Source of the DNA: Brachionus manjavacas
Taxonomy: Eukaryota; Rotifera; Eurotatoria; Ploima; Brachionidae
Assembly: GCA_019054805.1 (NCBI GenBank)
Contig: JAHQIY010000016.1
Span: 1,302,001 to 1,366,000, forward strand
Length of the DNA: 64,000 nucleotides
Direction: 5' to 3'
Shown in pieces: positions 2,550 through 64,000 of the stretch. Each line of letters starts with the position of its first letter. Within the stretch, counting starts at the first letter, position 1. The position numbers and the translations under genes were made by a program. The notes under the pieces are model-generated. The model searched no databases and had not been told where the DNA came from. It worked only from the letters and a program-made list of their open reading frames with translations.

Positions 2550-2885
2550 TTTTGTTTCGTCTTTTCTCAACAGTTCATCTATTTATATTTGTCTAAACAA
2601 ATAGCACAACAAAATAGAAATAAAAAAAAGAAAAGCAAAATTTATAAACAAACTGTTAATAAAATAGGTGTCAGAGGCAAAAGCTGTAAAATAATAAAGT
2701 TCTGTTACTCTCATGGAGAGAACGAGAGAAAGAGAAAAGATGTGATGGATGCATGAATGGAAAAGATTGATAATCCAATTGATTTAAAAGAGAAAAGGTG
2801 AGCTAATGGGTTTTGTTTGTGTTGACTCAATTGGCATTCAGGTGGACAGATTGAATATTTGCCATTAGTGTATGCTCCAAATTGA

Positions 2886-2965
2886 TTAATTTAATTACTT
2901 ATTTTCAACTGGTCTGTCAATTGCCATTGTTCAACCTAAACTAATAAATCATCATCGTTGATTAT
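2886..2965. repeat. Diverged direct repeat, copy 1 (partner 3639-3735)
   Basis: This stretch and the partner at 3639-3735 share TTAATTACTTATTTTC followed by an ACTGG..CTGT.AATTGCCAT pattern and then a CCTA..CT..TAAA.ATCATCAT block. The identity is high in patches and broken by small indels, so it is a diverged copy and not a recent duplication. No coding potential is seen. Confidence 0.6.
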
Positions 2966-3176
2966 CATACCCAACTCCATTGTGTAATTGCTACCTTACA
3001 ATTTCTTCTTTTTTCCCTGAACAATCAATTTTTTAAAAATATGTATACTTTAACTCTCTAGTTCAATTTCATTAATTTTCCTCTATTTTAAACCATTTTA
3101 TTACATTTTATTTTTTTAAATTTTTATTCTATCTTATTTAACTTTATTTTATTTTGATTTTTTTTTTTTCTTAATC

Positions 3177-3225
3177 TGAAGGAGCTTTTGCTCGGTACAG
3201 AAAACAAATAAATAAATAAATAAAT
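3177..3225 (+). repeat. Dispersed repeat R2, copy 1 (GGAGCTTTAGCTCGGTACAG core)
   Basis: The core reads GAAGGAGCTTTTGCTCGGTA, then CAGAAAACAAAT and a tail of AAAT units. Three other copies lie at 3294-3335, 8165-8206 and 55915-55957. The core can form a short stem (GAGC..GCTC). The shared 3' part and A-rich tail resemble the end of a short retroposon. Upstream, a CCATTGT.TAATTGCTA block at about 2976 recurs at about 55811, suggesting the element is about 150-250 bp long. Confidence 0.6.
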
Positions 3226-3293
3226 CATATAACTCTTACAAACTTTATTCATAATTTTATTTTACTTAACTTAATTTTTATTTTTATTCTAAA

Positions 3294-3335
3294 GGAGCTT
3301 TAGCTCGGTACAGTTAACTAATAAATAAATAAATC
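3294..3335 (+). repeat. Dispersed repeat R2, copy 2
   Basis: The core GGAGCTTTAGCTCGGTACAG is followed by TTAACTAATAAATAAATAAATC. It lies only about 115 bp after copy 1 in the same orientation, so the pair may be a tandem duplicate or two nested insertions. Confidence 0.6.
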
Positions 3336-3638
3336 ATGACTCTGCACAATATTCAATTTTTATTTTTTTTTTGAAAAATAAAAAAAGGGAAATTAATTTT
3401 ATTAATTTTTTTGTTTTATTTATTTGAAGTAAAATTTTGCACTTGGAGACTTAGTTCTTTCTTTGGGCCGCATCATTAAATTTGGAGACCTTAAAAAAAT
3501 TCGAATAATGCTAAAAAAGCTTGAATTAAGTAAAAATTGTTTTAATCTTGTAGCTTTATTTCTAAGACAGTGTCGCCTTATAAAGGTGCGCCGATCAAGT
3601 GGTCGGAAATGGGCCTATGCCTAAGTAATGAATAAATA

Positions 3639-3735
3639 ACTTAATTACTTATTTTCGACTGGACTGTGAATTGCCATGGATTAGCCTAGCTCATAAAAAT
3701 CATCATTGTGTTCGCTAATCGATTATCATTGATTT
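3639..3735. repeat. Diverged direct repeat, copy 2 (partner 2886-2965)
   Basis: This is the second copy of the repeat at 2886-2965. It has the same ACTTATTTTC.ACTGG start and the same GATTATCAT end, with an insertion in the middle. Confidence 0.55.
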
Positions 3736-25413: not shown

Positions 25414-25485
25414 TTCCCACACCGGGAATTGAACCCGGGCCGCCTGCGTGAAAGGCAGGAATCCTAACCACTAGACCATATGGGA
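25414..25485 (-). tRNA. trnE-UUC: tRNA-Glu (anticodon UUC)
   Basis: The reverse strand reads a complete cloverleaf of 72 nt including the discriminator. The acceptor stem is TCCCATA with TGTGGGA; the D arm has GGTCTAGTGGTTAGGA; the anticodon arm is CCTGC-CTTTCAC-GCAGG with UUC at 25450-25452; the T arm has CCCGGGTTCAATTCCCGG. A-box and B-box promoters are intact, and a T6 terminator follows (25406-25411 on the plus strand). No intron. It is very close to the usual animal tRNA-Glu. Confidence 0.97.
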
Positions 25486-30511: not shown

Positions 30512-33500
30512 ATGGAGACTTTTTCTAAATTGCGTCCACCCGATGCAGTCCGAATCAAAGTAAAGGTAAATTATTTATTTACAAAAATAAACTTTATTAA
30601 CTCAATTTAATAGTTGGTCGAAAGAGACTTGACCTCGTGTAGCTCGACGCCTCGTGTTAAACAGGTGAAAAAGTTCTGCGTTGATCCAATGGTGACCAGC
30701 TATGACATTTTGTTCAATTTGATATGCCAAACTTTTTCAATCAAAAGGTACGTGTTACGTTTAGAACTCTAGTCAGGCCTGAAAAAACATATTTAATATT
30801 TAATTTGTTCTTTTAATTAGGTTTAAAAAAGGAGGTTTTTTTCAAAAAACAAAATGTTCAGACCTTTTTATCTGGAATGACAAAATTTTTTTTTCTACCC
30901 TTTTTCTTAAAAATACCATTCAAATTTGGTTTGTAATTTCTGATGAAATACGCTACTGCTATTTTTTTATTTGTTTTTTATGAATATAAAATAAGAATGC
31001 TATGGAACATTGAAGTTTATGAACATATCTTATTGATAATGAACATGAATTACAATTAGCAAAAAAATTTTAATTATAAAATTATTTGTAAAGACTTAGA
31101 GAAATAAAAAATTAAAAAAATTAAAAAAAATATAAGCTAGACAATAAAATAGTTACTTTAAAAATACGCTCCTGAATTTAATTTTTAAAATTATTTTAAA
31201 TCGAAAAATTTAATCCTTTTTGTCAAAAAAATCTAATTAAAAAATAAGCAATAATAATAGTTGCTTAAATTAATGATACAAATTCTAGGAAACTTATTTA
31301 TAAGAAAATAGTGTAAGTAAGGTCCAAATTTAATCGAAATCAATCAAATTCTAAATATTACCAAAATCCAGATTTTCATATTTGCCAAATCAATTGTTTA
31401 GAGAATATTCTAGATACCACCTAGAACTGACCCAAGCTCTTCGTTTTGGCCTAGAAATTCACTAGCTGATTAGAATATGTCAAAAATCAAATATTCAAAT
31501 GAATATCATAAAAAATTATAAAAATAAAATTATCAACCGAAAAAAAATTCAGCTGTAAATTTTAACAACAGTTTTTGTTAAGAAAATAGAACAAAGTTTT
31601 TAAATTACAAAACAATTTCTTAACAAAAAAGGGATATAAATTGAAAAGATTGTAACAAATGTAAAAATACAAATTTCCCAAATTTTATGGAAGCTTATAA
31701 ATTATACTGTATAGAAAAAAAATCAGATAAAATTTTTTGATAAGATTTTCTAGCTGACAAGAAAAATTATTCTCTCGTTGATTTCAGTCGAAAAATTGTG
31801 TTTTCACTAATAAATAAAATAATATTAAAAAAAAAATAAAAAGCTAAAATTGTCACCAAAAAAATCAATTTTTTCCAAAAATGAGTCTTTTACCCCCTCA
31901 TAAGAAAAGATCCACTTGTAAATTTTATTAAATTAATAAAAATGAAAATAAAACAATTTTTCTTCTTTTATCAAGCGAATTTCACCTGAGCTATCTGAAC
32001 CGGCAAATTTACTCGCCGGAAGTGTCAGTTTCAAGCTCTACAGACAACGAGACTTCCTCTGACAACTTCATAGCACTGTACAACGATTGGGACCTGGACG
32101 CCGCCTTTCTTAACGCATCCAAGCCCTATCTGAGCATAAATGTCGAGTTGAAAAAAGCTGACCAGGCGGACAACGTGTACGAAGAGTGGGAAGTGATACA
32201 CTCGACCGAATCTGCGTTGACCTCCAATCAACTAAAGCGCATTCGACTGAACAACTCATCAGATCCAAAGTACCAAGCGGCGAACAGCCTTAATCGGTCG
32301 TTTATCTCAAGCGCAGCTGACAAAGCCGTGTCGGTCCTCAACCGCATGTTCAGCTTCAATCGGTCGTACTCGGCGCCAATGACCATCGGCACCGACGACA
32401 CCAACCTCCTCGACCTGAACCTCATGGAACCAAGTATCAAACCACGGCCACCGCTTGGAGACCCCGAACTGCAAAACTTCATGGACTGCGATGGACGCAT
32501 TGTCCAACCGCAGGAGCTCAGACAGCGCATATTCGAGGGAGGCTGCGAGCCGTCCAAGCGGCGCCACCTGTGGCCAATCCTCCTCGACATATTTCCCAAT
32601 CAGCACATGAGCCTGGACGAGCGCTGCGACTTCATCAACCAAAAATCAATCGAATACAAAAATCTAAAACACTCCCTGTGGTACAACTCCAACAAACTAC
32701 TGCACCAAAACTCGTCCCAAATAGTGTCGGACAGTTCGTTTGACTCGAACTTTTCCGACGAACAGCAACTGCACCATTTGGCGCACAAGATCTACAAGGA
32801 CGTTTGGCGAACTGACCGCAACCACAAGTTTTACAGCGGCGAGTCAAACAAAAACACCGAGAGCCTGTTCAACATCCTAATGACATACACTCTGTCGAAC
32901 CGAGGCCAGCCCTATTGCCAAGGCATGAGCGACCTGCTCTCGCCACTGCTCTACGTGCTCAAAGACGAGCCACTTGCCTACCACTGCTTTTGTTCGCTGA
33001 TGAACCGCTGCAGCCAAAACTTCCAAATAACCTCTGACTCGATCACCAGCAAGATAAGGCTGCTGGCATCGCTCATTCAAAAGTTCGACCCGCAACTATG
33101 GGCCTATTTGAGCCAAGTGGGCGCCGAACAACTTCTGTTCGTGTACAGATGGCTGCTGATCGAGTGCAAGCGCGAGTTTCCCTTCAGCGACTCGCTCCAC
33201 GTCTTCGAAATAATGTGGTCAAGCATCCAGAGCAACAAAGCCACCAGGTCCCACTCGGCCACTAGTTTGAAAATTCTACAAACCAACTACGAATCGGACA
33301 CTCACTCTGTGAACAACAACAACAATTGTTCCAATTGTAGAATTTGTGACAAAAACGAAGAGACCGAGACCGACACGGACATCGAGTCCGTCAATGGTTT
33401 CAACTACTACAATCATTTGAGGCGCAATAAGGAAAGGCGCAAGCGTCGCCTCAGCCTCAACGCCTCGTTCTACAGCCACAAGTCGAAGACAAAGTTCAAG

Positions 33501-34394
33501 CCATCTAGCTTGAACACAAATTGCTTCCTTAGCGAGCTGAGAGAGCAGCAGTACAAGGAGAAAAAGATGAAGAAAGCGCGCCGCGTCAAAACAAAAACAA
33601 GGTCCAAGAGTGTTGACAGTGGCTTAGGCGCAAATGTGAGTGCAGGTGCTAGGAGGTGCAAAAGTGAGGTCAATTTGAGAATTAGCTATGACGGCATGGC
33701 CAAAAAGGTGCCGTTTTTGTTCGCCAAAAAACTCAAGTCATCTTTGCTTGGCAACTCTGGCTCGAGCATGTTCAGCGAAGTGGACAGTGTGTCGCGCAAG
33801 CACAGGCCAGTGTCGTCGACAAGCTCGGACCTCAGTGATGACGTGAATAGCAAGTCAAACAAGAAAAAGTCGATTGGCAATCAAATCGAGCAAAAAGTGA
33901 AGAGAAAAATTTTGTTCAAAAATGTGAAAAAATCGCTGGAAAAATCTCATCTGCGCATAACCAAAAAGTTCAGCAAGTACAAGAGCTCGACATCGTCCAC
34001 TTCGGCCTATGTGTCGGCGGGCTCTGTCCTCAGCTCGGCATCGAGCGTCTCGTCCAGCTCGAATGCGTTCGCAAGCCAAAAGCCCGCCGACCCCAAGGAC
34101 AAGGGCCTCGCCAATGTTGTCCACGAAGAACAGCTTGTCTACGAGTTGTCCAAGCTGGACAATCCATTCTTGTTGTTTGTTTGCTTTGCCATGTTCTTGG
34201 AGAATCGTGAGCTGATCATTAACAGTCAAATGGACGCCAACGACATAGCTTGCTTCTTTGACAAAATGACCCGCAAGCATAATGTGAAAAGTGTGCTCGG
34301 CCGAGCTCGATATTTGTACACCAAGCTCTACTTGGCCAAAGTCAATGCGTTCAGCTACATTCAACATTTGATGGATATTCAAAATAGTCCTTGA
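30512..34394 (+). CDS. TBC1D25: TBC-domain Rab GTPase-activating protein, TBC1D25 (OATL1)-like
   Basis: Exons 30512-30565, 30614-30747 and 31976-34394, phases consistent, 868 aa. The N-terminus (about 15-120) matches the ubiquitin-like start of TBC1D25, with F.V.KSEFHLSYLNR and DWDL..AF..ASKPYL. EEWEVI at about 132-137 aligns with the family's LC3-interacting motif. The TBC domain spans about 243-480: the arginine finger is in YKDVWRTDR (D338, R341), the glutamine finger in YCQGMSDL (Q378), then YRWLL.ECKREF. A long Ser/Lys-rich insertion (about 490-765) separates this from the conserved C-terminal block (NPFLLFVCFAMFLENRE to LGRARYLY). In mammals the protein is a Rab GAP (Rab33B) acting on autophagosomes. 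Exon 3 is much richer in GC than the introns; intron 2 is 1228 nt. A second in-frame donor at 30560 would drop two residues. Confidence 0.93.
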
Positions 34395-37012: not shown

Positions 37013-38266
37013 CTACTCAATTGTGAATGTCAAAGTAGTTAAGTGGTTATATTCTGTGTCCGGGTTCAAAACACAACTTGGGAATTGTTTCTTGTTAAGA
37101 TTTAAAAAATAAATTGAAATGTTTTTTGAAAAAAACTAAAAATTACATGATTTAATGAGTCAGGATAATTATGAGCCTCTAAACAGAATCCATGATGTAT
37201 TTTATAATTCGAACCATGAGTGGTACAAATATCTAAGAAATTTCCGGTGTAAAAATACAAACCCGGTTGATTAGACCTCAAGTCACACCTGATTCCATTA
37301 GATGGGTTTTTAACTCTTAAATGAAATATTAATTTAATATTTTGGCTTTTAAAATTCAATTACGAAGCTAAATCATTCAAAGAAGAATTTGTATTTTTTC
37401 CAATAAAATAATTATCAAACCCATGCTCCGGCCATTTTCCATTCTTTTGAATGAGGTGATTGAGCGCTTTAAAATCTCTAAAATCAAATTTAGAATTGTC
37501 AACTTCTATGCTTTTGCCTGTCACTGTATTGTCCGGATTTAGCTCTAAATATTTATCTGAATTTATCTTAAATAAATGGTTGTAAATTTTCTCGGTTGAA
37601 TCACGTCCATTTAAATTAAAATAAAAATGGTTCGTCAAATTGACAGGTGTTGGTTTATCTGTTATTGCTTTATACTCAATAATCAATGTATTTTCATTTT
37701 CATCTAATTTGAACCAAGCATCGAACCACACTTCGCCAGGAAAACCCCCCTCTCCATCCGCACTTACATAACTAAATTTAACACAACTATCCACGATCGT
37801 GGAAGCCCAATTTTTCTAATAAAAATTATGTTTTTCTGTTAGATTTTTTTTAATTTAAATTACCATTGCTAGTCCTTTAGGGCCTCCATGAAGGGTGTTT
37901 TCACCTTCGTTTTTCTCCAGCTGGTAAACAGTGCCATTTAATTCAAATTTAGAGTAAGCTATTCGATTGCTGACCCGACCAATTGTTGAACCAATGTAAG
38001 GGTTTGATAAGTATTCTAAAAATTTATTCATAAAAAAATTTAAAAATTTAAGACTTTGAAAAAATTTTGCCTTCAATTGTTTCAAATCCAAGGGCAATGT
38101 TTACCACTTTTTCATCTTTGTCTTTGACAAAAATTGATTGAATCGAAGCTCCGTAAGAAATTAGCGATACAGAGAAACCGTTTTTGTTGGTCATTGTGTA
38201 CTTTTTGACAATTTGTTTGTCCGGAAGTTTGCCAAATTTGCTTTCTTCGATTTTTACTTGACTCAT
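37013..38266 (-). CDS. GALM: Galactose mutarotase (aldose 1-epimerase)
   Basis: Exons (minus): 38071-38266, 37864-38015, 37364-37815, 37147-37315, 37013-37090; 348 aa against about 342 in human. It interconverts alpha and beta anomers of galactose/glucose, the first step of the Leloir pathway, in the cytosol. Landmarks: SYGASI near 38; IGRVSNRIA; catalytic His in LHGGPKG (H108); TPVNLTNHFYFNLNG (H179); GLYFYTGNFLD; catalytic Glu in GFCLEAHNYPD (E313); C-terminus FPSCVLNPDTEYNH. The last exon is only 26 codons and was found by homology and phase. Intron 1 appears to start with GC (GAAG/GCAAAA at 38070-38069): no GT donor gives the right frame. An acceptor-like TTTTTCAG lies 17 nt before the ATG. 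Introns are 31 to 56 nt, with the 48-nt intron 3 of typical size. Confidence 0.94.
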
Positions 38267-39415: not shown

Positions 39416-42222
39416 TTAAATACCTGATTTATCAAACTTAACATCGCCAAAAAACAATTTTATCTCATGCTCAGCTTGTTCTTGAGTTGTTGGACCATGT
39501 ACCGCATTTTTAAGCACATCAATTCCATACAAAGCTCTCAATCTAGTACAAACCAAAAATAATTTGTTTAATTTAAATTTTTTTTAAATTACGATTCCGG
39601 GTTTTCTTGTTTGGCTTTTTCTGGGTCCGTCGGTCCGATCACCTCTTTCCAGCCTTGAATTGCATTTTCTCTTGACAAAACCATTATTTCAGTCTCGCCA
39701 CTTGAAGCTTATTTAATTTAATTTTCAAAAAAAAATTTAAAAATTAACCTGCTCATCAAATTAACTAAATCATTATAATATTCTTTATCACTGGCATTTT
39801 TATACATCTCTTTGGCAATCTCTTGGCTTAGTATATCGGATTTTTTGGTTGCTATTATAAAACCGAAATTTTCTATTTTCTTTTTTATTTCCTCTAAATT
39901 TAATTTAATAAAACTGAAATTTAACAAAGATTAATTTATTACCCCTCTTCTCAGATGAGATACCAGGTTTCAAGATTGCAACTGTTTGTTCCATTGGGAA
40001 AAAAGTTTCGAGCTCTTTTTGGGCTTGCTCTTGTGACGATGGGCCATGCAAAGCATTAATTGGAGATCCATCGACGTCAAACTCGTTTCTCAAAGTTCCT
40101 GCTGCTTCTTTTATTTTTTCCTTTTCCTTAGGTCCAAGTAAACTTCTCCATGATTGTATGGCATCTTCTTTAGCTAGACAAAGAACCATCATCTTACCAC
40201 TAGTCATTTCTTTTACCAAATCCTCAAAATAAGGTCGTCCTTTATGATCCGCATAGAATTGTTCGGCTTGATCTTCACTTAATTGAATAGTCTTGCTCAT
40301 TGCGATTCTAAAGCCTTTATCTTGAATTTTTTTAATAATAGATTCATGATGCTTGGTAAAAGCACTCGGTCTTATCAAAGCCAATGTTCGTTGTAAATTT
40401 TGTTTGTTTTCAGAATTTTCATAGTCTGGGAAGAAAAATGCAAGCTCTCTGGTTGCCGATTCATGACTATCACTGCCATGAATAGCATTCATAAGTTTAT
40501 CAGTGGCATACTGGCCTCGGAATGAGTCCGGATTTTCTTGTGGTTCTTCAATATCAGCACCGATATCCTTGCGCCAATTGTTTATAACATCTTCTTGGTT
40601 TGATTCTTTGGTCAACGCGAGAACACAAGACTCATCACTGGTCATGTATCGGATCAAATCGTCAAAGTTTGGCTATTTTTTTAAATTTATAAATTAAGAA
40701 AATGTTAACATTACAATTTTTTTATTTACATCATCTTTTTTATGAGCATAAAATTGCTGAGCCATTTTCTCTGTAAACTGAATGTTTCGTTGCTCTACTA
40801 TTTCGTATCCTTTATCTTTTATTTTTTGTATAATCTCATCTTTTTTGTTCTTGGCTATCATATCTGGCTTGATTATGCAAATGGTAAGCGGTCGTTTGGT
40901 CTTAACTTTTTTAAAAATTAAACAAAAATAAATATTAGAAAAAAATGAGTAAACTACTTAAATGCTGCACTTGTTCTTTGGACTTTTCTTCGGCCTTCTT
41001 TTTCTTTATTTTTTCAATAGCTTGATCAATAATCTAAATTTTTTTATTTATTAAATATTTAAATTTAATTTTAGAAAATCTACTGGCTTCCTTTGAGCTT
41101 CTCCCTTTAGAACTTTGTGTTCCTGCTCAAGCTGTTCGGTTATGGTACGAACTATTAACGGAGCATTGGCTCCTCTGACAACATTAACAAGTTCTTTTCC
41201 CTATAAATAAATTAAAAATTTATGAACTGATTTAATTTATTTTTCTTACCGCATAAAACAAAAAACAAGGTTCACAGCGTCCTCGATAGTCTTCCAGAGC
41301 GTTTATGGTATCAGCTTTGGCCTTGGGTATTCAATTTTAATTAACATTAAGTTTAACAAAAATAAAAGCAAATTTTAAAATATAAAAGGAATTTTTTACT
41401 AATAGATAACAAGCAAATGTTTATGTGAAAACTCACTGTGGCAAAGTGTAATTTGTCATCACCGAGTGTGTTTTTAAGTGCTCTAAATCTTGACTCCATG
41501 GCCCTAAGGGGTCCACCATAACTCTGGTACACATCAATGACTATTTAATATTAATAAAATAGTGATTTTTTTAATTTAAAAATAATAAGAGTGATAAATC
41601 AAAAGTGTGGTCTAGAGGTGAATTTTTGAAAAATTAAAATCTGTGAATCTGAATCTAAAAATTAATTAATTTAAATTACAACTGCAAATTTCAGCAGATC
41701 GTCTGACTGCTCCATTTTAATTTTTTTAAAAATGTTCTCGAATGCCTTGCATGGTCCACACCAAGCCTGGTACGCTTCGGTAACTAGCAAAAATATTATT
41801 AGAAAAAAATGTATGAGGAAACATTCTTAGGGGGCTCTGAAAATAAACATGCATTTCTACAACAGGGAATACTTAAATGCAACAAATATAAGCACTATGG
41901 GCTTAAAAGTCTAAATAATTACACTAATGAATTTTATATTATTTTTATATTTGCAAAAACTTTTCATATATCGAAGTATATGATACGATGGACCTGTCCA
42001 TTTCTGATAAATATCGATGACTAGTATTAAAATTAAATCGAATGGATTTAAATTAGAAAAATGTGGGCCTTTTACCAATTAGACCTTCATTTGCCAGCAG
42101 TGTATTCCATTGATCGTCGGTTTCAATTTCTTGCTAAAATTTAATTTTTTAAATCTAATTTTTATTTATTAAACTAATTATTTAATTACTTGTAGGACAA
42201 TTTCAACTTTTCTTCGTGCCAT
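39416..42222 (-). CDS. NME8: Thioredoxin + triple NDP-kinase ciliary protein (NME8/TXNDC3, dynein IC1-like)
   Basis: Exons (minus): 42190-42222; 42076-42133; one of three thioredoxin exons (41923-42020, 41680-41783 or 41437-41540); 41250-41321; 41084-41200; 40958-41033; 40730-40905; 39943-40672; 39749-39893; 39593-39700; 39416-39542. With the CGPC exon it is 581 aa (human 588). The thioredoxin domain spans about 10-110, then a charged linker and three NDP-kinase domains at about 157-290, 310-435 and 445-565. All three keep a catalytic-type histidine: NAIHGSDS (H277), NALHGPSS (H421), NAVHGPTT (H555). NME8-type proteins associate with outer-arm dynein of motile cilia and sperm tails. The three thioredoxin exons share phase and cannot be read in series, so they look mutually exclusive. 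The coding end is uncertain (see 38695-38801). Exon structure and domains are read directly; role is from the family. Confidence 0.93.
41437..41540 (-). other. NME8: NME8 thioredoxin exon variant c (GGPL active site)
   Basis: 104 nt, acceptor TTAAATAG, donor GTGAGT. It starts at the same phase as the other two variants (needs one base from exon 2) and ends in phase 0. It encodes VIDVYQSYGGPLRAMESRF and ends LHFAT. Outside the active site it is the closest of the three to vertebrate NME8, but both redox cysteines are absent. Confidence 0.85.
41680..41783 (-). other. NME8: NME8 thioredoxin exon variant b (CGPC active site)
   Basis: 104 nt, acceptor TTTTTGCTAG, donor GTAATT. It encodes VTEAYQAWCGPCKAFENIF and ends LLKFAV. 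It is the only variant with the classical thioredoxin CGPC motif (C39 and C42 of the assembled protein). Confidence 0.87.
41923..42020 (-). other. NME8: NME8 thioredoxin exon variant a (TGPS active site)
   Basis: 98 nt, acceptor TTTTAATACTAG, donor GTAATT; same start and end phase as b and c, two codons shorter. It encodes VIDIYQKWTGPSYHILRYM and then a Lys/Asn-rich helix. It is the most diverged copy. It may be a functional alternative or a decaying exon; the intact frame and both splice sites favour the former. Confidence 0.65.
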
Positions 42223-43679: not shown

Positions 43680-46600
43680 TTAAAGATAATATCGATTTGA
43701 ATTCGATGGAGTATTTGAAAGAATACTATTTTTTCCTTGAATGTCTTCGTCTTTTATTTTCAAAATATTCAGATAATTTTCAGTACGACCAAGACTAGAT
43801 GGGGCCGAGGATCCTGACGACACACTTGAACATGTCGATTTACAGCTTAGAAACTTGGGCTGATGAACAGAGGAAAAATAGTCTATTTCGTCATCATTCT
43901 CAATACACAGCCTGTTTACATCTAGGACACAAGGGTTGCATTTTGTCTTAAAAAAGACATATCTGGACTCTGGGTGGTTGGCGCTTACTTTGTTAGCAGA
44001 CAAAACCGATGACTTGGTTGATTTTGTCGAAGTGTATGAAATGGTTGATGACAGCTCGAAAGGACTTGACTGCTGTGAAGCAGAGAAAACCTGATTTTGT
44101 AATTTTCCGCACTCACTTTTTTGAAATTTTTTAAATAAACTTGAAACTTTGAATTTAGTTGGGCCATGTCGCACTGCGGCATTGCTCAATTTAAGCAGTA
44201 AAAAAAAACATGTAAAAATAATCATTAGAATGAACAATAAAATTAATAGTATAAATAAATAGATATTGATTCTAATATTAACTTGGTTTTGATCAAATAT
44301 TTGTTCAATACTTTCGCTTGAATTTGTCTCGTTTTTAGAGTCGAATTCTTTTTTGAGCTTGAGAAGTGCAAATGAAACTTTGGTTGAATCTAAAGGTGCT
44401 GGTATCATGTCTACATTTGATTTATAATTAAAACACTGTGAATGCTTGGCTGACCATTGGCAATAGGGATACAAATTTTGATCACATTTTTCAATGCTAG
44501 TTTTTTGTCCACAAAAATCTCCTAGAACAGAAATCACCTTATTTTGTGTCACTAGAACAAAATAATCACTAGTTTTTTGTTTTAAAAATTTTATATTTTT
44601 AATCTGTGTCGATTTTGGTTCAATGTTTTGCTGAGCAAAAAAGCGACTAGGAACCATGTTGATGTTATTCTTAACCCTAGAGTAGTTTATTTTTAAATCA
44701 TTTCCATCAAAAAGTTCAATTTGTTCCGAATAGACCAACTGGTCTTGGCTGAGGACAAATGTTAAAATTCTTCCATTTTCGGTTCCGACAAACAAAGTGT
44801 CTCTGGACTGAAAATCAACATCTATGGACAGAAATCGGTCCGAGACCGAACTCTCGACCACAATTGCTTCGGACACAATTTCTTTTTCCATGATAAAATT
44901 TTTACGCGAAAACACCAAATGTTGGTAGTTGAGCTCATTTGGACACTGACTTGGCCTTGGATTGGGCACGGATTTTTTGAACCGATTATAATTTTCACCA
45001 AAATCAAAATTTCCATTTGTTTTAAACTTGTACTCGCCGTGAAATGAGTCCATTATTTGGTCCATGCCAAATTTGCAGATAGCCGATGCTGTGATCGAAT
45101 TAGAAGAAGTACTAAACACTGCATAAAAGTATTCTTTGCCTTTTTTGTCCTTGTAAACGTCACTAATTGACTCTGAAATTGAAAAAATTTATTTGTTAAC
45201 TTTTTGATGGAAATTTTATTTTTATTTTCTACTTATTTCATCAAAATAAAAAATAGAGGATTTTTTGAATGTTGGACTCAGAGACTCGTGGGAAAATGGC
45301 GAATTGACGGCCGTATTGTGCGTACAACTCAATTTGGCCTTGAGGTACGTGGTCCATATGTTGCGCAATGAATTCAACGGGGCTCCTCGGTCATTCTGGC
45401 AAATCTGAGCAATATGCGAACTCTTAAAAGACTGGCGCGTGTTCCCATTTTCCTCATTTAGATTGGAAGTTTCTTCATTAAAAATAAAGAAAATTCTTTT
45501 GTCATTTTTAAATGTGCTTATAAATTCAGCTCCTTAAATAAATAGTTAAAAAATAAAAAAAATTTTTTTTTTTGTATTTTAAATTCTACTATTTAGCCAA
45601 GTGTTATCATCTACATTGGTACTTATGCGATTTTGATCATACAGCCCATTAATACTTGTATAAAATCTATTTAAATCGATTGAATTAGCAGCGTATAACC
45701 GGTTATTGGCATAATTGTAAGCATATTTGCTCTCATAGGCTTTAAGTGGTGCTTGTCCGACTCCGCTAGTTTCATTGATGATGTAGGGATTCCAAAATTG
45801 GCCGTAATTGCTCTTGATTAAACAAATATTAGACAATTATAAAAAAAGAACTATGAATACAAATCTCGGACCTTTTTCAATCCGTAGAAGCGGCATTTAG
45901 GATTTAGGGCATTTGTAGAACAAATTTTGAATATATTATCATTTATTTTTAGGTAAACTTTAATATAATTATCACACTCATCCTAAAAAATTTCGGGTCA
46001 GATTTACGATTTTTGAATTTTTGACTTAAATTACTTTGTTGCTGATGATTGATCGATTTAGGCAGTTTATGCTGTCAATTTGAGAGCTTGTCCATGTTTG
46101 ATTCTATTTTGTTTTAGGAATTTAATTAAAAAATAGATAATTTATCATGTTAAATTAAAAGCCATTTTAAATTTTTTATTAAATTTAAATAAATAAATCT
46201 TTAAAAAAAAAAAAAATGTCAACTTACACTTATGATATGCAGATCAGGCACTCTCAATTGATACAAATAATTCCTGATTAAAAATATTATTTTTTTTAAT
46301 TTCAATTTATCACTTTCGAGCTTAATTGTTACCTGGCCCCGATAAAAATCGATGATTCATCAATGTCAAATGCGTTGCTCTGAGATGATGACAGCAATTG
46401 AAAATAATCTCTATTCAAGTAAACACTTTCGAAAAGCTTGACTCGATTGTTTCCTTTAAAAATCGTTTTAGCCATAGGTAAATTAAAAGATCAAATTTCA
46501 AGATAAATATTTCAAATAGCTCTCAATTATATCAATAAATACCAATTAAAAACCAAAATAAAAAACAAGAGAGCCAAAAATTTTTATTACCAATTTGCTT

Positions 46601-51162: not shown

Positions 51163-52738
51163 TTAGGTTTCTTTTAAAAATATGTTCTCATTTAGAAAGT
51201 CTAAAACAGAGCTGGTGCTAATTAGCGAGTTGAAAAATCTTCTCTCGCTTTTAATTAGGTTGTTCTGCAGCATTTGAGCCAGAACCTGGTGAAAGTATTG
51301 GAACGGGGTGCCGTATCTCATTGAAATGTCGACCCAATCTTTGACGCATTCGACCGGAGTGCTGGGATGGCCGGCGAACATTGCAGGGTTTTCGAGAAGT
51401 CCACGCGCGCACATCACGCCGCGTACATTTGCTTGCTTGGATATTTTCTCACACTCTTCTAGAGAAAACAGGTCACCATTGGCAATTACAGGCATTTGCT
51501 TGATATTCTCAGCCACTAGTACCAACTGGTCCAAATGAATGGGCTCGTGACGCTCGTATTTTGTTCGGGCATGCACTGTCAGGTAGCTGCAACCGGCTGA
51601 CTCAAGCTGACGGCACAAATCAATCGTCTTGCTTTAGTTATTAAAAATATTGATTAATAATTTTTTTTTAAATTTAATTAAGTTTTAGCTGAAAAAAAGA
51701 ATTTTTTTTCATCCAAAAATTGATCTTTGATAACAAATATCAATTATTTTTAAAGAATAAAATATTTTTTTTCTCAATATTGATTTTAGAGTAAGTGTTG
51801 ATTATTTTTATAAGATTAAATAATTTTTTCGTTCCAAAATTGATCTTAAGTAACAAATATTAATTTTTTTTTAATAAAAAATTAAATTACTTTTTTTCGT
51901 ACAAATTAATGTTAAGTATCTTGCTGAGTTAAATTTTCCCATTGTTCAATTAAGTTCAATATGGAAAATTGTTTTTATCAAGAGGAAATAAATTTTCAAG
52001 TCAAGAGAGCTAATTACTTTATTTAATTGAACACTTAAAACCTGAAACCAAGTCAACTGAAAAATATGCAATATTAGCCACAACTTAAGAGCTCTTAAGC
52101 TCTATGAATTAATTTTAAATATTTGCTTAGAATATTTATTTAAAGCTCATTAAATAAAATAAATAAAACCAGCCGCTTATTTTTTTAAATATTTACCTTA
52201 AATTTTCGTGCAAGCGTATTTTAACTGCCACAGTAAAATCCTTGTCATAATTTAGGCGTTTTCTGGTTTCTTTGACCATTTCACAGACCATGTCATTTTT
52301 GTCAATGAGGCCGGCACCTACACCTTCTTGAATAGCCCATTTTTGCGGACATCCGCAGTTCAGCTCAACGCCATCAGCACAATTTCGAACAAACTGGGCT
52401 GAAGTTGCCAATTCGTTTGGGTTTTTAGCGGCAAATTGGACTATTAAGGGTCGATCAGTTTCGTTAGTTGTGAATTCATTGTCTCTGGCCTTCTGCGAAC
52501 GCAAAAACGAATCGGACATTATCATAGGCGTATAGGCCAGATCGCAGTCGTATTTTCTGATCAACTCTCGAAACTGAAGTCTTTTGAAATTTTAATTTTA
52601 AATTTACATTTAATTTATATTTCGAGATTACTTTGTATAGCGAACCATTGGTGCACACAGTTTGACCATTTCACTTGATTCAAAAAGTTCAAGTGGTTTT
52701 TTATATTCAAATTTTTTTATTTCACAGTTTTTAGTCAT
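51163..52738 (-). CDS. DUS4L: tRNA-dihydrouridine synthase 4-like
   Basis: Exons (minus): 52632-52738, 52197-52580, 51163-51631; 319 aa against 317 in human. It is a flavin enzyme that reduces uridine to dihydrouridine in the D loop of tRNA. Landmarks: VKLCAPMVRYTK (about 25-36), CDLAYTPMI, PLIVQFAAKNP, VELNCGCPQKWA with the catalytic Cys (C113), VKIRLH, YLTVHARTKYERH, MPVIANGDLFSLEEC, GVMCARGLLENPAMFAG. The TIM-barrel DUS domain fills almost the whole protein. Intron 2 is 565 nt and carries a degenerate tandem repeat of about 60 bp. The start codon lies 114 nt after the stop of the mitochondrial SSB gene on the same strand, with an AATTTAG acceptor-like site 3 nt before the ATG. Confidence 0.95.
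51713..51920. repeat. Degenerate tandem repeat of about 60 bp in DUS4L intron 2
   Basis: Four successive units start at about 51713, 51773, 51834 and 51900, each with a variant of CCAAAATTGATCTT, then GTAACAAATATTAATT and a T/A tract. The period is 60 to 66 bp. Confidence 0.55.
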
Positions 52739-52852
52739 ATTCTAAATTATTCAAATTATTTTTTTGTTTAAATTAAAATTAAATTGTGTCTCAAAACAAT
52801 TTAATAATTAAAAATCAAAAAAAATATTTTTTTTTTTTAAATAAAATTTTTA

Positions 52853-57142: not shown

Positions 57143-60100
57143 TTAATTAATGAATAATTTTGGAAAGTCAATATCGCCTAGAGCCATGGACTTATTTTGG
57201 TTAAAATTTTCCTTGTTCAAATGGGACTGAAGGCTGGCATTGGTGCTCATGCTGCTCATGCTAGCATTGGACTTGTTGGCATCCCAATAGGCGTCACAGA
57301 TGGCACCATTTCTCAAGTCCTTGGATACATGGTCCAACACTTGCTGATACTTTTCGCTGCACACCAAAGTCTGATTAGTCCTGAGCAAATTTTGCTTGAG
57401 CTCATCGAACGGCATCTGATAAAAATCCCTGATTATCCTTTGATTCTTCTCCTCCTGGTCCTCGCCGGTCACATTTATTGCAATGCCGGCGCTGGTCACG
57501 GGCATGATAGAGCTGCCGGGTCCGATGGTGCTCGAACCGACGCCCAGTCCACTATTGCTCAAATTGCTGGCGTTCATGTTCGAACCACTGTTGAACAGCA
57601 TGCGCCTTATTGTGTCAAAGCTAGTGAAGTCAACATAGTTGGTTCTGGGTGCGTGTGTGGACCCGATTGTTGCCTGATTGTCGTCGATAAAAAACCTCAT
57701 GTTCTCCTTGAGCCTGGGCTCCAGCTCAAAGCCCTGGTCTATGCTCACTTGACTGGTGCTGTCGTAGGACGTGTCGTCGTCCATCGAGTTCATGTCGATG
57801 GAGCGACGCGGCGTCTGATTACTCTGCGATATGCCGCTGTAGCCGCGCAGGTGACCGCGACTAAAGGCCTCGTCCGAGCCAGTCTCGCTCTCGCTCGAAT
57901 AGGGATCACGGTGGCGCAGGGCCGAGTGCACACACGCCAATGTTTGCATGTAAGAACCAGACAGTGTGAACTCGGCATCGGTGGCCAGCACATTTTTGCT
58001 CACATTATTCCTGAGCAGTATTTGCTGCACGCGCTTCTTGTCGAACATCCACGGCGACAACTTGACGCTCCACTCTATTTCGTTGTCAGTGTGGCGACTA
58101 AGCCTGTCCACATAGGCTCTGTACTCTTTGGCCGACTCGGCCATGTCTTTCCGCAGCTCGGACTCGATTTCGCTGAACGAGCTCACTTGGGACTGGATGC
58201 CCGAGTCGCCGGCCGAGTCCAGCAAAATGTACTCCGGATAGACAAACTTGTACAAGTCCTTGCGGCGTCTCAGGTCGCACACTTGGCTCACGTAGTCGTA
58301 CAAGTCGGCCATGCAGCTCGACTTGGCCACCAGGAGAAAAAAGGCGCATATAAACTTGTGCACAGAACACTGCAGGCCAAATGTAAAGGTGTCCGAGTCG
58401 TGGTTGAGCAGTGCCAAGTCTTGCAAATAGAAGCCAAAGCGGACAAAGTCGCCCACAAATTCGCGGTCATTGAAAAAGCCGATGACTATTAGACTCAGGG
58501 TGACATAGGCAGACTCGTAGTTTTCTCTCCGATTGTTGGCTATGAACAAGTACTCGTTGAAGTGGGAGAGAATGGCGCGGCCGTGCTTCCGCATGAACAT
58601 GGAGTCCTCGCGACTCGACCGATTTTTGGTCTTGTCGTCGAGGCTCAGCTGGCTGAGAAAGGTCTGGTTGCGGCTGATGCTTTGCTGCGAGAGTTTGGGC
58701 GGCGTGTGCTGGTTGTTCAAGGAGAGCGAACTCTCGGTCAGACTGGTGGCTGATTTGAAGTTTTTTCTCAACACTGGCACCAGGCGATAGGTGCCTGGCT
58801 TCAGGGCCTGGATTCTGTCGAGCATGTGGTACTTGTCGATGAGAAGCTGTAGGATTTCGTTGGCTTTCTTGCGCGACGCATAGTCGTTCACTAGAATGAG
58901 CTTGAGACTGTCCTCGAGAAATTGCTGGCTGCCAAATGCGCCAAACACCTGCACTGGCTTGTACTTGGTGCATATTTCGTACAAACACTCGTAGTATTTG
59001 GCGCGCTTGCGACCATTCAACAGCTCAAGTTCGTTCTTGTCCGCTTGGCTGTTGCCGCTGAGCTCAAAATAGCTAAATTGTTGGGTGTTGATTTGGCGCG
59101 CAAAAAACACCAATATGTCGTTTTTGGCATAGTCAGGCATGTTTTGAGTAAATTGACGCATGGCACTTATGATCTCTTTTTGCAGTTTGTTCTCGTCTGT
59201 CAAATTGTCCGCCTTTCTGGTCGTCAAATTGTACGCTTTTTCCACGCTGATGTTCAAATGCTTGAGCAAATTGTTGAATATGTCGATTATTTGGCTGGTG
59301 GTGCCCACGGACTGCATGGCGCTTATTTTGGTGCACAAAATGATGGTGCGTATGATGTGGCATTTGAGGAGGGCGCGCGAGTTGCGATGCGAGTCCAAGT
59401 GTTTGAGGAGCTCGCGTACCACAAACGCGTGCTGTTGTCTCACATTGTAGATGACAATCAAAAAAATGCATCTCACAAATTTTGCCAAGTGCCAGCCGTG
59501 CTGGCCATTGTCGTCCAGAAAGTCCAGTATGGGCACGACTATTTTGCTGATGGTGGTGTAGTCGGCCTTGGTGCAAATGTTTTTGAGCAGGGTTTTCGCC
59601 TCGTGCTCGGGCTCCAGCGCCTCACTCTTTGTCTTCTTCTCGTTTAGATTGATGACCACTTGGTCCTCGTCGGCAAGCTGCGACTTTCGCTTGAACTCGA
59701 CGCTTGCCGCCGAGTCCACTCGCTCCATGCTCTGTCTGAGCCGTGTGCTCATGTACAGCTCGCCGTAGATGTACTCGGCGAGCTCTTGCTCGTCCTCGTG
59801 GTAGTCGTAGTCGCTGTGGTCGAGCTGCGAGCTGCTCTTGTGCCGAGCCATGTAGCGCTCGTGTATTATGAACAAAATGCCCGCTACTATCTTGTCCATG
59901 TTGTCCCAGATGTAGCCGGCGCGCAGGTTGTCGTCCGGCACCAGCCTCTGCACCATGGTGGCCAAACACTGCAGTCCACTGGATCTAATCTCGGCTCGCG
60001 TGCTATCCTCTTTGTTGTTGTTAAAGCACAGCGAGCTGAATTGGCACACAAACTGGTCAAAGTTCAAATTGTAGTTGGACAAGTTGGAAGACTCTTTTTC

Positions 60101-60571
60101 GCAGAATTTTTGGAAAAGACCCGCTGCCCTTTTCTGATAGCGCAGCGATTCGTTGCTGGTCGTGTTCAAGGTGCCGTAGCTGGACGTGTTGGACATGGCA
60201 CTTTGTGACACTGGCTGCATTTGAGCGCCCAGGCCGTAGCCCTGTTCCAGAAGTTTTTGTATTACTTTGAGATAAGTGGGAGCGTAGTAGTTCAAATTTT
60301 GAGGTGTGATCGCCAACAGGATGCTTTCCAAAGCTTCGATTGTATTCTCGGTGTATTTTGCGTATTTGTAGCCATTGTTCAGAGCCCATTTCAAATTCTG
60401 GTACAGGTATTCGCCTATTTTGGACAGCTTTTCCGGATGAACAGTCGCATAGTAGAGCAGCTTGTCCACTTCGTTTTTGACAAGAGGCGCATCGCTTTGG
60501 CGCGGATAAATGTTGTCCACTTTGCGCTTATATTTTGGATAGAAACAGCAGCAGGCACAGCATGATGACAT
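57143..60571 (-). CDS. EFR3: EFR3 family plasma-membrane scaffold (rolling blackout homologue)
   Basis: One exon, 1142 aa, with ATG at 60571. The N-terminus MSSCCACCCFYPKYKRKVDN carries the palmitoylation-type Cys cluster and the YKR.VDNI.P motif of EFR3; LVKNEVDKLLYYA..PEKLSKIGEYL follows, and then an alpha-helical repeat region to about 600 with QHGWHLAKFVRCIFLI, FNNLLKHLNISVEKAY and LRPxxR-like KPGTYRLVPVLRKNF. EFR3 anchors the PI4KIII-alpha/TTC7 complex at the plasma membrane. Human EFR3A is about 820 aa; the extra length here is spread over Ser-rich linkers after about 620 and in the tail. The vertebrate gene has many introns, this one none. GC is far above the flanks. It lies 230 nt after the LSM3 stop on the same strand. 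Confidence 0.93.
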   Translation of the reverse strand: MSSCCACCCFYPKYKRKVDNIYPRQSDAPLVKNEVDKLLYYATVHPEKLSKIGEYLYQNLKWALNNGYKYAKYTENTIEALESILLAITPQNLNYYAPTYLKVIQKLLEQGYGLGAQMQPVSQSAMSNTSSYGTLNTTSNESLRYQKRAAGLFQKFCEKESSNLSNYNLNFDQFVCQFSSLCFNNNKEDSTRAEIRSSGLQCLATMVQRLVPDDNLRAGYIWDNMDKIVAGILFIIHERYMARHKSSSQLDHSDYDYHEDEQELAEYIYGELYMSTRLRQSMERVDSAASVEFKRKSQLADEDQVVINLNEKKTKSEALEPEHEAKTLLKNICTKADYTTISKIVVPILDFLDDNGQHGWHLAKFVRCIFLIVIYNVRQQHAFVVRELLKHLDSHRNSRALLKCHIIRTIILCTKISAMQSVGTTSQIIDIFNNLLKHLNISVEKAYNLTTRKADNLTDENKLQKEIISAMRQFTQNMPDYAKNDILVFFARQINTQQFSYFELSGNSQADKNELELLNGRKRAKYYECLYEICTKYKPVQVFGAFGSQQFLEDSLKLILVNDYASRKKANEILQLLIDKYHMLDRIQALKPGTYRLVPVLRKNFKSATSLTESSLSLNNQHTPPKLSQQSISRNQTFLSQLSLDDKTKNRSSREDSMFMRKHGRAILSHFNEYLFIANNRRENYESAYVTLSLIVIGFFNDREFVGDFVRFGFYLQDLALLNHDSDTFTFGLQCSVHKFICAFFLLVAKSSCMADLYDYVSQVCDLRRRKDLYKFVYPEYILLDSAGDSGIQSQVSSFSEIESELRKDMAESAKEYRAYVDRLSRHTDNEIEWSVKLSPWMFDKKRVQQILLRNNVSKNVLATDAEFTLSGSYMQTLACVHSALRHRDPYSSESETGSDEAFSRGHLRGYSGISQSNQTPRRSIDMNSMDDDTSYDSTSQVSIDQGFELEPRLKENMRFFIDDNQATIGSTHAPRTNYVDFTSFDTIRRMLFNSGSNMNASNLSNSGLGVGSSTIGPGSSIMPVTSAGIAINVTGEDQEEKNQRIIRDFYQMPFDELKQNLLRTNQTLVCSEKYQQVLDHVSKDLRNGAICDAYWDANKSNASMSSMSTNASLQSHLNKENFNQNKSMALGDIDFPKLFIN

Positions 60572-60801
60572 TATTTTTGGTTGGAGTTTATGACAACCAA
60601 GAGTCGATCAACAGATTAAAATCTAAAAGTATTTTTTTTCTTTCTAAATTGATGTAATAAAAAAAACTTACTAAAGCCTTTTACAACTTTATTTTAATTA
60701 AAAAAATTTATGATTTCAAAACATTTGTGTTTGTTTATTACATAAATCTATTTGAGAAAAAATTAAAAAAAATTATTTTTTGGTTTAATTAATGAGAGAC
60801 T

Positions 60802-63403: not shown

Positions 63404-64000
63404 ATGGCTAAAAAAATTCTTAGGCTTAATAGAACAATGATGAAAACCAAAAAAATGATAAAAATGCTTAAAAAAGGCGGTAAAAAAATAAATAAATTGA
63501 AAAGATTATTAGAAAAAGAAGTGATAATGGGTTACAACAAAAATCAATGGAACGTGTACAATTATGCAAGGCAAGTGGTTGATTGTAGCAAAATCAGACC
63601 TGAACATTGCGAAGCATACAGTGAACGATCATCTGGTCAATCCGGACAGTCAATTCAAACAGAAAAAGAAGTGATAATGGGTGACAACAAAAATCAATGG
63701 AACGTGTACAATTATGCAAGGCAAGTGGTTGATTGGAGCAAAATCAGACCTGAACATTGCGAAGCATACAGTGAACGATCATCTGGTCAATCCGGACAGT
63801 CATTTCAAACAGAAAAAGAAGTGATAATGGGTGACAACAAAAATCAATGGAACGTGTACAATTATGCAAGGCAAGTGGTTGATTGGAGCAAAATCAGACC
63901 TGAACATTGCGAAGCATACAGTGAACGATCATCTGGTCAATCCGGACAGTCATTTCAAACAGAAAAAGAAGTGATAATGGGTGACAACAAAAATCAATGG
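63404..64000 (+). CDS. Tandem-repeat protein of 50-aa units, partial at right edge
   Basis: The frame opens at ATG 63404, with an in-frame stop upstream at 63386, and is still open at the window edge (199 codons). The first 36 residues are Lys/Met-rich (MAKKILRLNRTMMKTKKMIK and onward, no signal peptide). Three full units of 50 aa (150 bp) follow from about 63512, and a fourth starts at 63962. Each begins EKEVIMG, contains NQWNVYNYARQVVDWSKIRP and EHCEAYSERS, and ends SGQSGQS.QT. Units 2 and 3 are identical in DNA; unit 1 differs at three bases, all changing a residue (D to Y, W to C, F to I). Only this frame is open. I do not recognise the family. It could instead be a satellite that is open by chance. 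Splicing past the edge cannot be excluded. Confidence 0.6.
   Translation, partial: MAKKILRLNRTMMKTKKMIKMLKKGGKKINKLKRLLEKEVIMGYNKNQWNVYNYARQVVDCSKIRPEHCEAYSERSSGQSGQSIQTEKEVIMGDNKNQWNVYNYARQVVDWSKIRPEHCEAYSERSSGQSGQSFQTEKEVIMGDNKNQWNVYNYARQVVDWSKIRPEHCEAYSERSSGQSGQSFQTEKEVIMGDNKNQW
63511..64000 (+). repeat. 150-bp perfect tandem repeat
   Basis: Units start at 63511, 63661, 63811 and 63961, exactly 150 bp apart. The 63661 and 63811 units are identical at every base; the first has three differences. The array continues off the right edge, so its copy number is unknown. Confidence 0.95.

Follow-up and report, generated by a model that had tools for sequence, protein, structure and literature searches.

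Three candidate mutually exclusive active-site exons in the thioredoxin domain of an NME8-type gene of the rotifer Brachionus manjavacas

The architecture of NME8 (TXNDC3, Sptrx-2) is given in part of PMC13256974 as a thioredoxin (Trx) domain and then three NDK domains, and two transcripts of the human gene are mentioned there. A passage of the same paper reports thioredoxin activity of human NME8 and NME9 as undetectable and describes the significance of their thioredoxin domains as unresolved; sperm without the domain show a higher oxidative sensitivity, which is taken there as a sign of a redox role. The gene considered here has the domain order of NME8, and human NME9 (TXNDC6) is the best solved relative of its Trx part. 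It differs from both in having three candidate alternative active-site exons, two of which lack the cysteines of CGPC. The second human NME8 transcript reportedly skips exon 7.

The outer dynein arm light chains LC3 and LC5 of Chlamydomonas and LC3BL of Tetrahymena carry the same family signature around the active site. LC3 and LC3BL are separate proteins with CXXC, as described in part of PMC10886578, and alignment indicates the same for the Chlamydomonas light chains in structure 8glv, whereas here the variation lies within one gene. All three of its isoforms match the 16 and 14 kDa light chains (8glv chains DO and DC) and 7kek chain P. Human NME9 is described, in a portion of PMC10886578, as a homologue of LC3.

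Mutually exclusive exons that arose by tandem duplication are well known. Those of OGDH (4a/4b) and Dscam are, like the exons here, adjacent, homologous, of the same phase and of lengths differing by a multiple of three, and double inclusion of tandem-duplicated mutually exclusive exons breaks the frame, as it does here. Frame incongruity with decay is one of the enforcing mechanisms listed in part of PMC7969005. Dscam is of the RNA pairing type, while none was found in the one sequence available here; OGDH is of the distant branch point type, for which the signals here point both ways: branch-like motifs lie near every acceptor, with further ones upstream in the intron between the second and third cassettes. 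As far as searched, an NME8-type case was not found described. In the open-licence literature (5.39 million papers), judged by title and start of abstract, NME8 with mutually exclusive exons gave no paper on such a case, and thioredoxin with mutually exclusive exons gave none among the matches listed; axonemal dynein with mutually exclusive exon gave, by title, only a cancer study, and narrower searches of that literature for such a cassette gave none.

The gene, its cassette exons and its surroundings

The window is the whole 64,000-nucleotide stretch of DNA analysed, to which plain coordinates below refer, and comes from a small, AT-rich animal genome (114 Mb in 61 contigs). On its minus strand, 39416-42222 is one NME8-type gene with eleven coding positions, reading from 42222 to 39416, its junctions having been picked by hand from GT-AG borders and the open frame. 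The third coding position exists in three homologous versions, A, B and C, between exon 2 and exon 4.

42190..42222, minus: exon 1, 33 nt, constant; ATG start, donor GTAATT
42076..42133, minus: exon 2, 58 nt, constant; its last base completes the first codon of each cassette
42021..42075, minus: intron, exon 2 to A, 55 nt
41923..42020, minus: cassette exon A, 98 nt, VIDIYQKWTGPS..., TGPS, without the active-site cysteines; GC 0.24
41784..41922, minus: intron, A to B, 139 nt; no detectable similarity to the next two introns
41680..41783, minus: cassette exon B, 104 nt, VTEAYQAWCGPC..., canonical CGPC
41541..41679, minus: intron, B to C, 139 nt
41437..41540, minus: cassette exon C, 104 nt, VIDVYQSYGGPL..., GGPL, without the active-site cysteines
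41322..41436, minus: intron, C to exon 4, 115 nt
41250..41321, minus: exon 4, 72 nt, constant; cis-proline loop with Cys-Glu-Pro-Cys
39416..41200, minus: exons 5 to 11 with their introns, constant; end of Trx, linker, three NDK domains, stop codon

Each cassette has its own acceptor and donor, GT-AG at all three, and the three share entry phase and exit phase, with lengths differing by a multiple of three: exon 2 stops one base into a codon, and each cassette ends at a codon border. Exon A is two codons shorter than B and C, is open with both splice sites, and retains VIDIYQ-W-GP and the final strand. An earlier note on this DNA had given these coordinates, the lengths of 98, 104 and 104 nt, the phases, the splice sites and the motifs TGPS, CGPC and GGPL, and all were reproduced, the strand being minus. 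Its further point, that the three exons encode the same part of the thioredoxin fold, is borne out by alignments of the exons to each other and to dynein-arm thioredoxins. With the structure of thioredoxin, which we take as the guide for placing the cassette within the fold, each would comprise a central strand, the active-site turn, the next helix and the next strand.

The proposal that the gene is of the NME8 type agrees with the Pfam matches, Trx and then three NDK. PF00334 (NDK) matches three stretches downstream of the Trx domain, at 362.9 bits in the full-length A isoform. PF00085 (Thioredoxin) scores 39.2 bits for B and 24.8 bits for C in 128-aa N-terminal pieces, the cut-off being 23.5, and isoform A falls below it both in the N-terminal piece (22.9 bits) and as the full-length protein (19.6). 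For the first 151 to 153 residues, whichever cassette is present, the best solved relative is human NME9 (PDB 8j07), at E values for the N-terminal part of 2.5e-43 (B), 3.3e-39 (C) and 1.3e-33 (A), though the constant exons contribute much of the score in every case.

All eight inclusion combinations of A, B and C were translated through the whole gene. The three single-cassette messages are open to the gene end, giving proteins of 579, 581 and 581 aa for A, B and C. The remaining five meet an early stop: with no cassette at codon 34 (7 junctions downstream), with A and B at codon 94 (8 downstream), with A and C at codon 104 and with B and C at codon 106 (7 downstream in each), and with all three at codon 94 (9 downstream). 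That an open message admits one cassette only, as had been claimed, thus holds. Nonsense-mediated decay is expected to remove messages in which an early stop is followed by further junctions, so skipped and double-inclusion messages of this gene would be removed by it.

At the sensitivity used, the 114 Mb and 61 contigs yielded neither an NME9 nor a further NME8-type gene. Outside the gene, the Trx part is best matched at C15:278878-279276 (E 4.6e-5, 33% identity) by an open frame of 203 aa that contains WCGPC; inspection of its surroundings by eye alone showed no NDK. Other NDK matches occur on C2 and C1, and genome-wide Pfam Trx matches number 58. Among the viral and genome contigs searched there were no relatives of the gene, as expected for an animal gene. 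If the homology of NME9 to LC3 holds here, no other gene would supply that subunit, and its diversity would lie in the cassettes alone.

Upstream of the gene, the next of the long open frames (43683-45188, minus) has a Sema domain, and downstream on the same strand is an Aldose 1-epimerase match (37360-37815, minus). Elsewhere in the window a Rab-GAP TBC domain lies in a long open frame (31932-34391, plus), an EFR3 armadillo match in one of 1154 aa where the DNA is GC-richer at 0.43 (57146-60607, minus), and a CUB match, together with two lectin matches below their cut-offs, in one of 751 aa (330-2582, minus); a tRNA-Glu with anticodon ttc is at 25414-25485 (minus). At 63511-64000 (plus) a tandem array of a 150-base unit, 3.3 copies with 99% matches, lies within a 204-aa open frame reaching the window end. 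In the genome TTAGGG arrays are clustered, some of them tens of kilobases from a contig start (for instance C8:48439-50009), while on C30 one lies 46 bases from it; four tandem TTAGGG units give 48 overlapping matches. Four tandem TGTGGG units give no match, and neither does a spliced-leader sequence of bdelloids with up to 2 mismatches.

Splice signals and the choice of cassette

RNA structure in the introns was considered as a cause of exclusive choice and gained no support from this one sequence, none of the intron pairs, the four single introns and the whole region being clearly beyond shuffles. Pairing between the cluster introns, judged from one sequence and without covariation, was not clearly beyond shuffles in any of six pairs (reached by 24, 149, 139, 254, 206 and 199 of 300), and folding of the 794-base region was not above 60 shuffles (z 0.63). 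As no RNA pairing was found, the frame is the only enforcing feature seen.

Each of the four cluster introns has branch-like motifs no more than 36 bases from its acceptor, and the B-C intron has others far upstream. The nearest upstream AG is 50, 44, 73 and 79 bases from the intron end in the four, so that long AG-free stretches precede the acceptors of C (73 bases) and exon 4 (79 bases). Regulated exons commonly have weak splice sites. Scores in the cluster tend to be below the constitutive ones, which we count against mutually exclusive use: the cassette donors lie at 3.7 to 5.7 and the donor of exon 2 at 4.0, where eight constitutive donors range from 4.5 to 8.8, and the acceptors lie at 8.8 (A), 3.2 (B), 3.6 (C) and 1.8 (exon 4), where the constitutive range is 5.4 to 11.0. 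The comparison favours the constitutive sites, since the same sites trained the matrix. The GC of the cluster introns, 0.17-0.30 against 0.112 for eight constitutive introns together, was set aside as evidence, since the tiny constitutive introns may simply be extreme.

Divergence of the cassettes and competing readings

Every pair of cassette peptides, A-B, A-C and B-C, scores above 5000 of 5000 shuffles, and human NME9 is identical to B at 17 of 35 residues, to C at 15 of 35 and to A at 10 of 33. The scores of the cassettes against three references are reached by 0 to 5 of 3000 random open frames of the window, a pool that includes real genes and probably the cassettes themselves. In a comparison that also took in the introns, the scores of exon pairs are reached by 4 (A-B), 1 (A-C) and 0 (B-C) of 500 shuffles. 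For the three longer introns, to which the intron comparison was confined, the corresponding numbers are 266, 301 and 104 of 500, so that any similarity is saturated; the A-B and B-C introns are both exactly 139 nt, yet no more alike than shuffles. The exons look to have preserved their protein meaning while the introns lost all likeness, and since the exons are still alike and the introns are not, the duplications look old.

Nucleotide identities of 0.52 (B-C), 0.41 (A-B) and 0.39 (A-C) correspond to about 1.0 or more substitutions per site in a simulation of neutral decay that started from exon B and ran towards an AT-rich equilibrium by substitutions only, with 4000 runs per distance. A run counted as retaining the cassette when the frame was open and the score of C against NME9, or of A against LC5, was reached. 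At 0.2, 0.4, 0.6, 0.8, 1.0 and 1.5 substitutions per site, the fraction of runs doing so was 0.1210, 0.0060, 0.0003, 0, 0 and 0 for C and 0.3065, 0.0727, 0.0123, 0.0022, 0.0005 and 0 for A. Simulated neutral decay thus does not leave exon C as found, and leaves exon A so only rarely. In each of the three pairs conservation is lowest at third codon positions (one-sided P 0.034 for A-B, 0.062 for A-C and 0.056 for B-C), tests that are borderline and not independent of one another.

With the anatomy, the homology and the frame logic of the cluster established, the reading we favour, at a probability of about 0.7, is that of an NME8-type gene with a mutually exclusive cassette triple by which the active-site unit is exchanged. 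Two tandem duplications, long ago, would have multiplied the exon that encodes the beta-alpha-beta unit with the thioredoxin active site, and the message would consist of exon 2, one of A, B or C, and exon 4 onwards; skipping or double inclusion would change the frame, bring an early stop and lead to nonsense-mediated decay. The outcome would be three putative ciliary proteins that share the NDK part and the remaining Trx fold and differ at the surface around the active site, with CGPC in B only and presumably with differing function. As members of such a set B and C are well supported and A is probable.

The weaker standing of A invites the reading, in our judgement unlikely, that mutually exclusive use is limited to B and C, A being a third copy in decay and out of use. 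Overall GC is 0.24 for A against 0.41 for B and 0.43 for C (by codon position 0.24, 0.27, 0.24 for A; 0.49, 0.31, 0.46 for B; 0.51, 0.40, 0.40 for C), so that A appears intron-like and the least certain member; it is also shorter than the others by two codons and is the least similar to NME9 (10/33). When the window was scanned for open segments that resemble each other on one strand and within 1500 nt, 66 pairs emerged. B-C ranks 13th, the pairs above it being 11 from the 150-base tandem array and one formed by NDK repeats of this gene. A-B (25.4 bits) is 18th and A-C (24.3 bits) 19th, close to unexplained pairs (26.9 bits at 2855-3715 and 23.5 bits at 52196-52741), and so exon A is near background by the window scan alone. 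Yet the frame of A is open and its two splice sites are present; A also keeps VIDIYQ-W-GP and a final strand and has the highest acceptor score of the three cassettes (8.8 versus 3.2 and 3.6), and its similarity rarely survives neutral decay at its divergence.

That B alone is used, A and C being relics of old exon duplications, would fit with the canonical active site being in B only and with B being the best match to both Pfam Trx and NME9. This is quite improbable, however, as C shares 15 of 35 residues with human NME9, exceeds the Pfam cut-off, has a coding-like GC of 0.43, and scores beyond all neutral simulations at distances of at least 0.8 substitutions per site. The least probable reading, and a very improbable one, makes A and C poison exons whose extra inclusion lowers the amount of B protein through message decay. 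All double and triple inclusions do lead to an early stop with at least 7 junctions downstream, but a poison exon needs neither a protein motif nor an in-frame length, and A and C keep both.

Redox chemistry and the meaning of the cassettes

For the favoured reading of three mutually exclusive cassettes, the nature of the difference between the isoforms is of interest. The earlier note had proposed that the gene could make one redox-active thioredoxin and two redox-dead or altered ones, and the part that stands is the distribution of cysteines, CGPC being in B only and A and C lacking both. The contrast in activity goes beyond the evidence, given that human NME8 and NME9 are reported to have no detectable activity and that Cys-Glu-Pro-Cys of exon 4 is constant. 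The cis-proline loop in exon 4 reads Arg-Gly-Arg-Cys-Glu-Pro-Cys, where human NME9 has Arg-Gly-Lys-Cys-Glu-Pro-Thr. As exon 4 is constant, every isoform retains two cysteines that should sit close to the active-site region; this second pair, encoded at 41250-41321 (minus), is probably beside the active site in all of them, and in A and C it could assume some of the redox chemistry.

Since one of the three cassettes has both reactive cysteines, splicing could decide the redox ability of the protein. From this a cilium-specific redox switch may be imagined, a possible but doubtful one as judged from the sequence, in which the cell type, ciliated epithelium or sperm for instance, would determine which of three interchangeable units is used, and a subunit of the axoneme would differ between cell types, with B as the catalytic unit (CGPC) and the other two without the cysteines. 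Instead of redox chemistry, or besides it, the swap of cassettes may alter how the protein binds the dynein arm. A gene offering one protein both with its active-site cysteines and lacking them is a natural experiment, and when and where each exon is used would tell whether it is the cysteines or the surrounding shape that matter in cilia.
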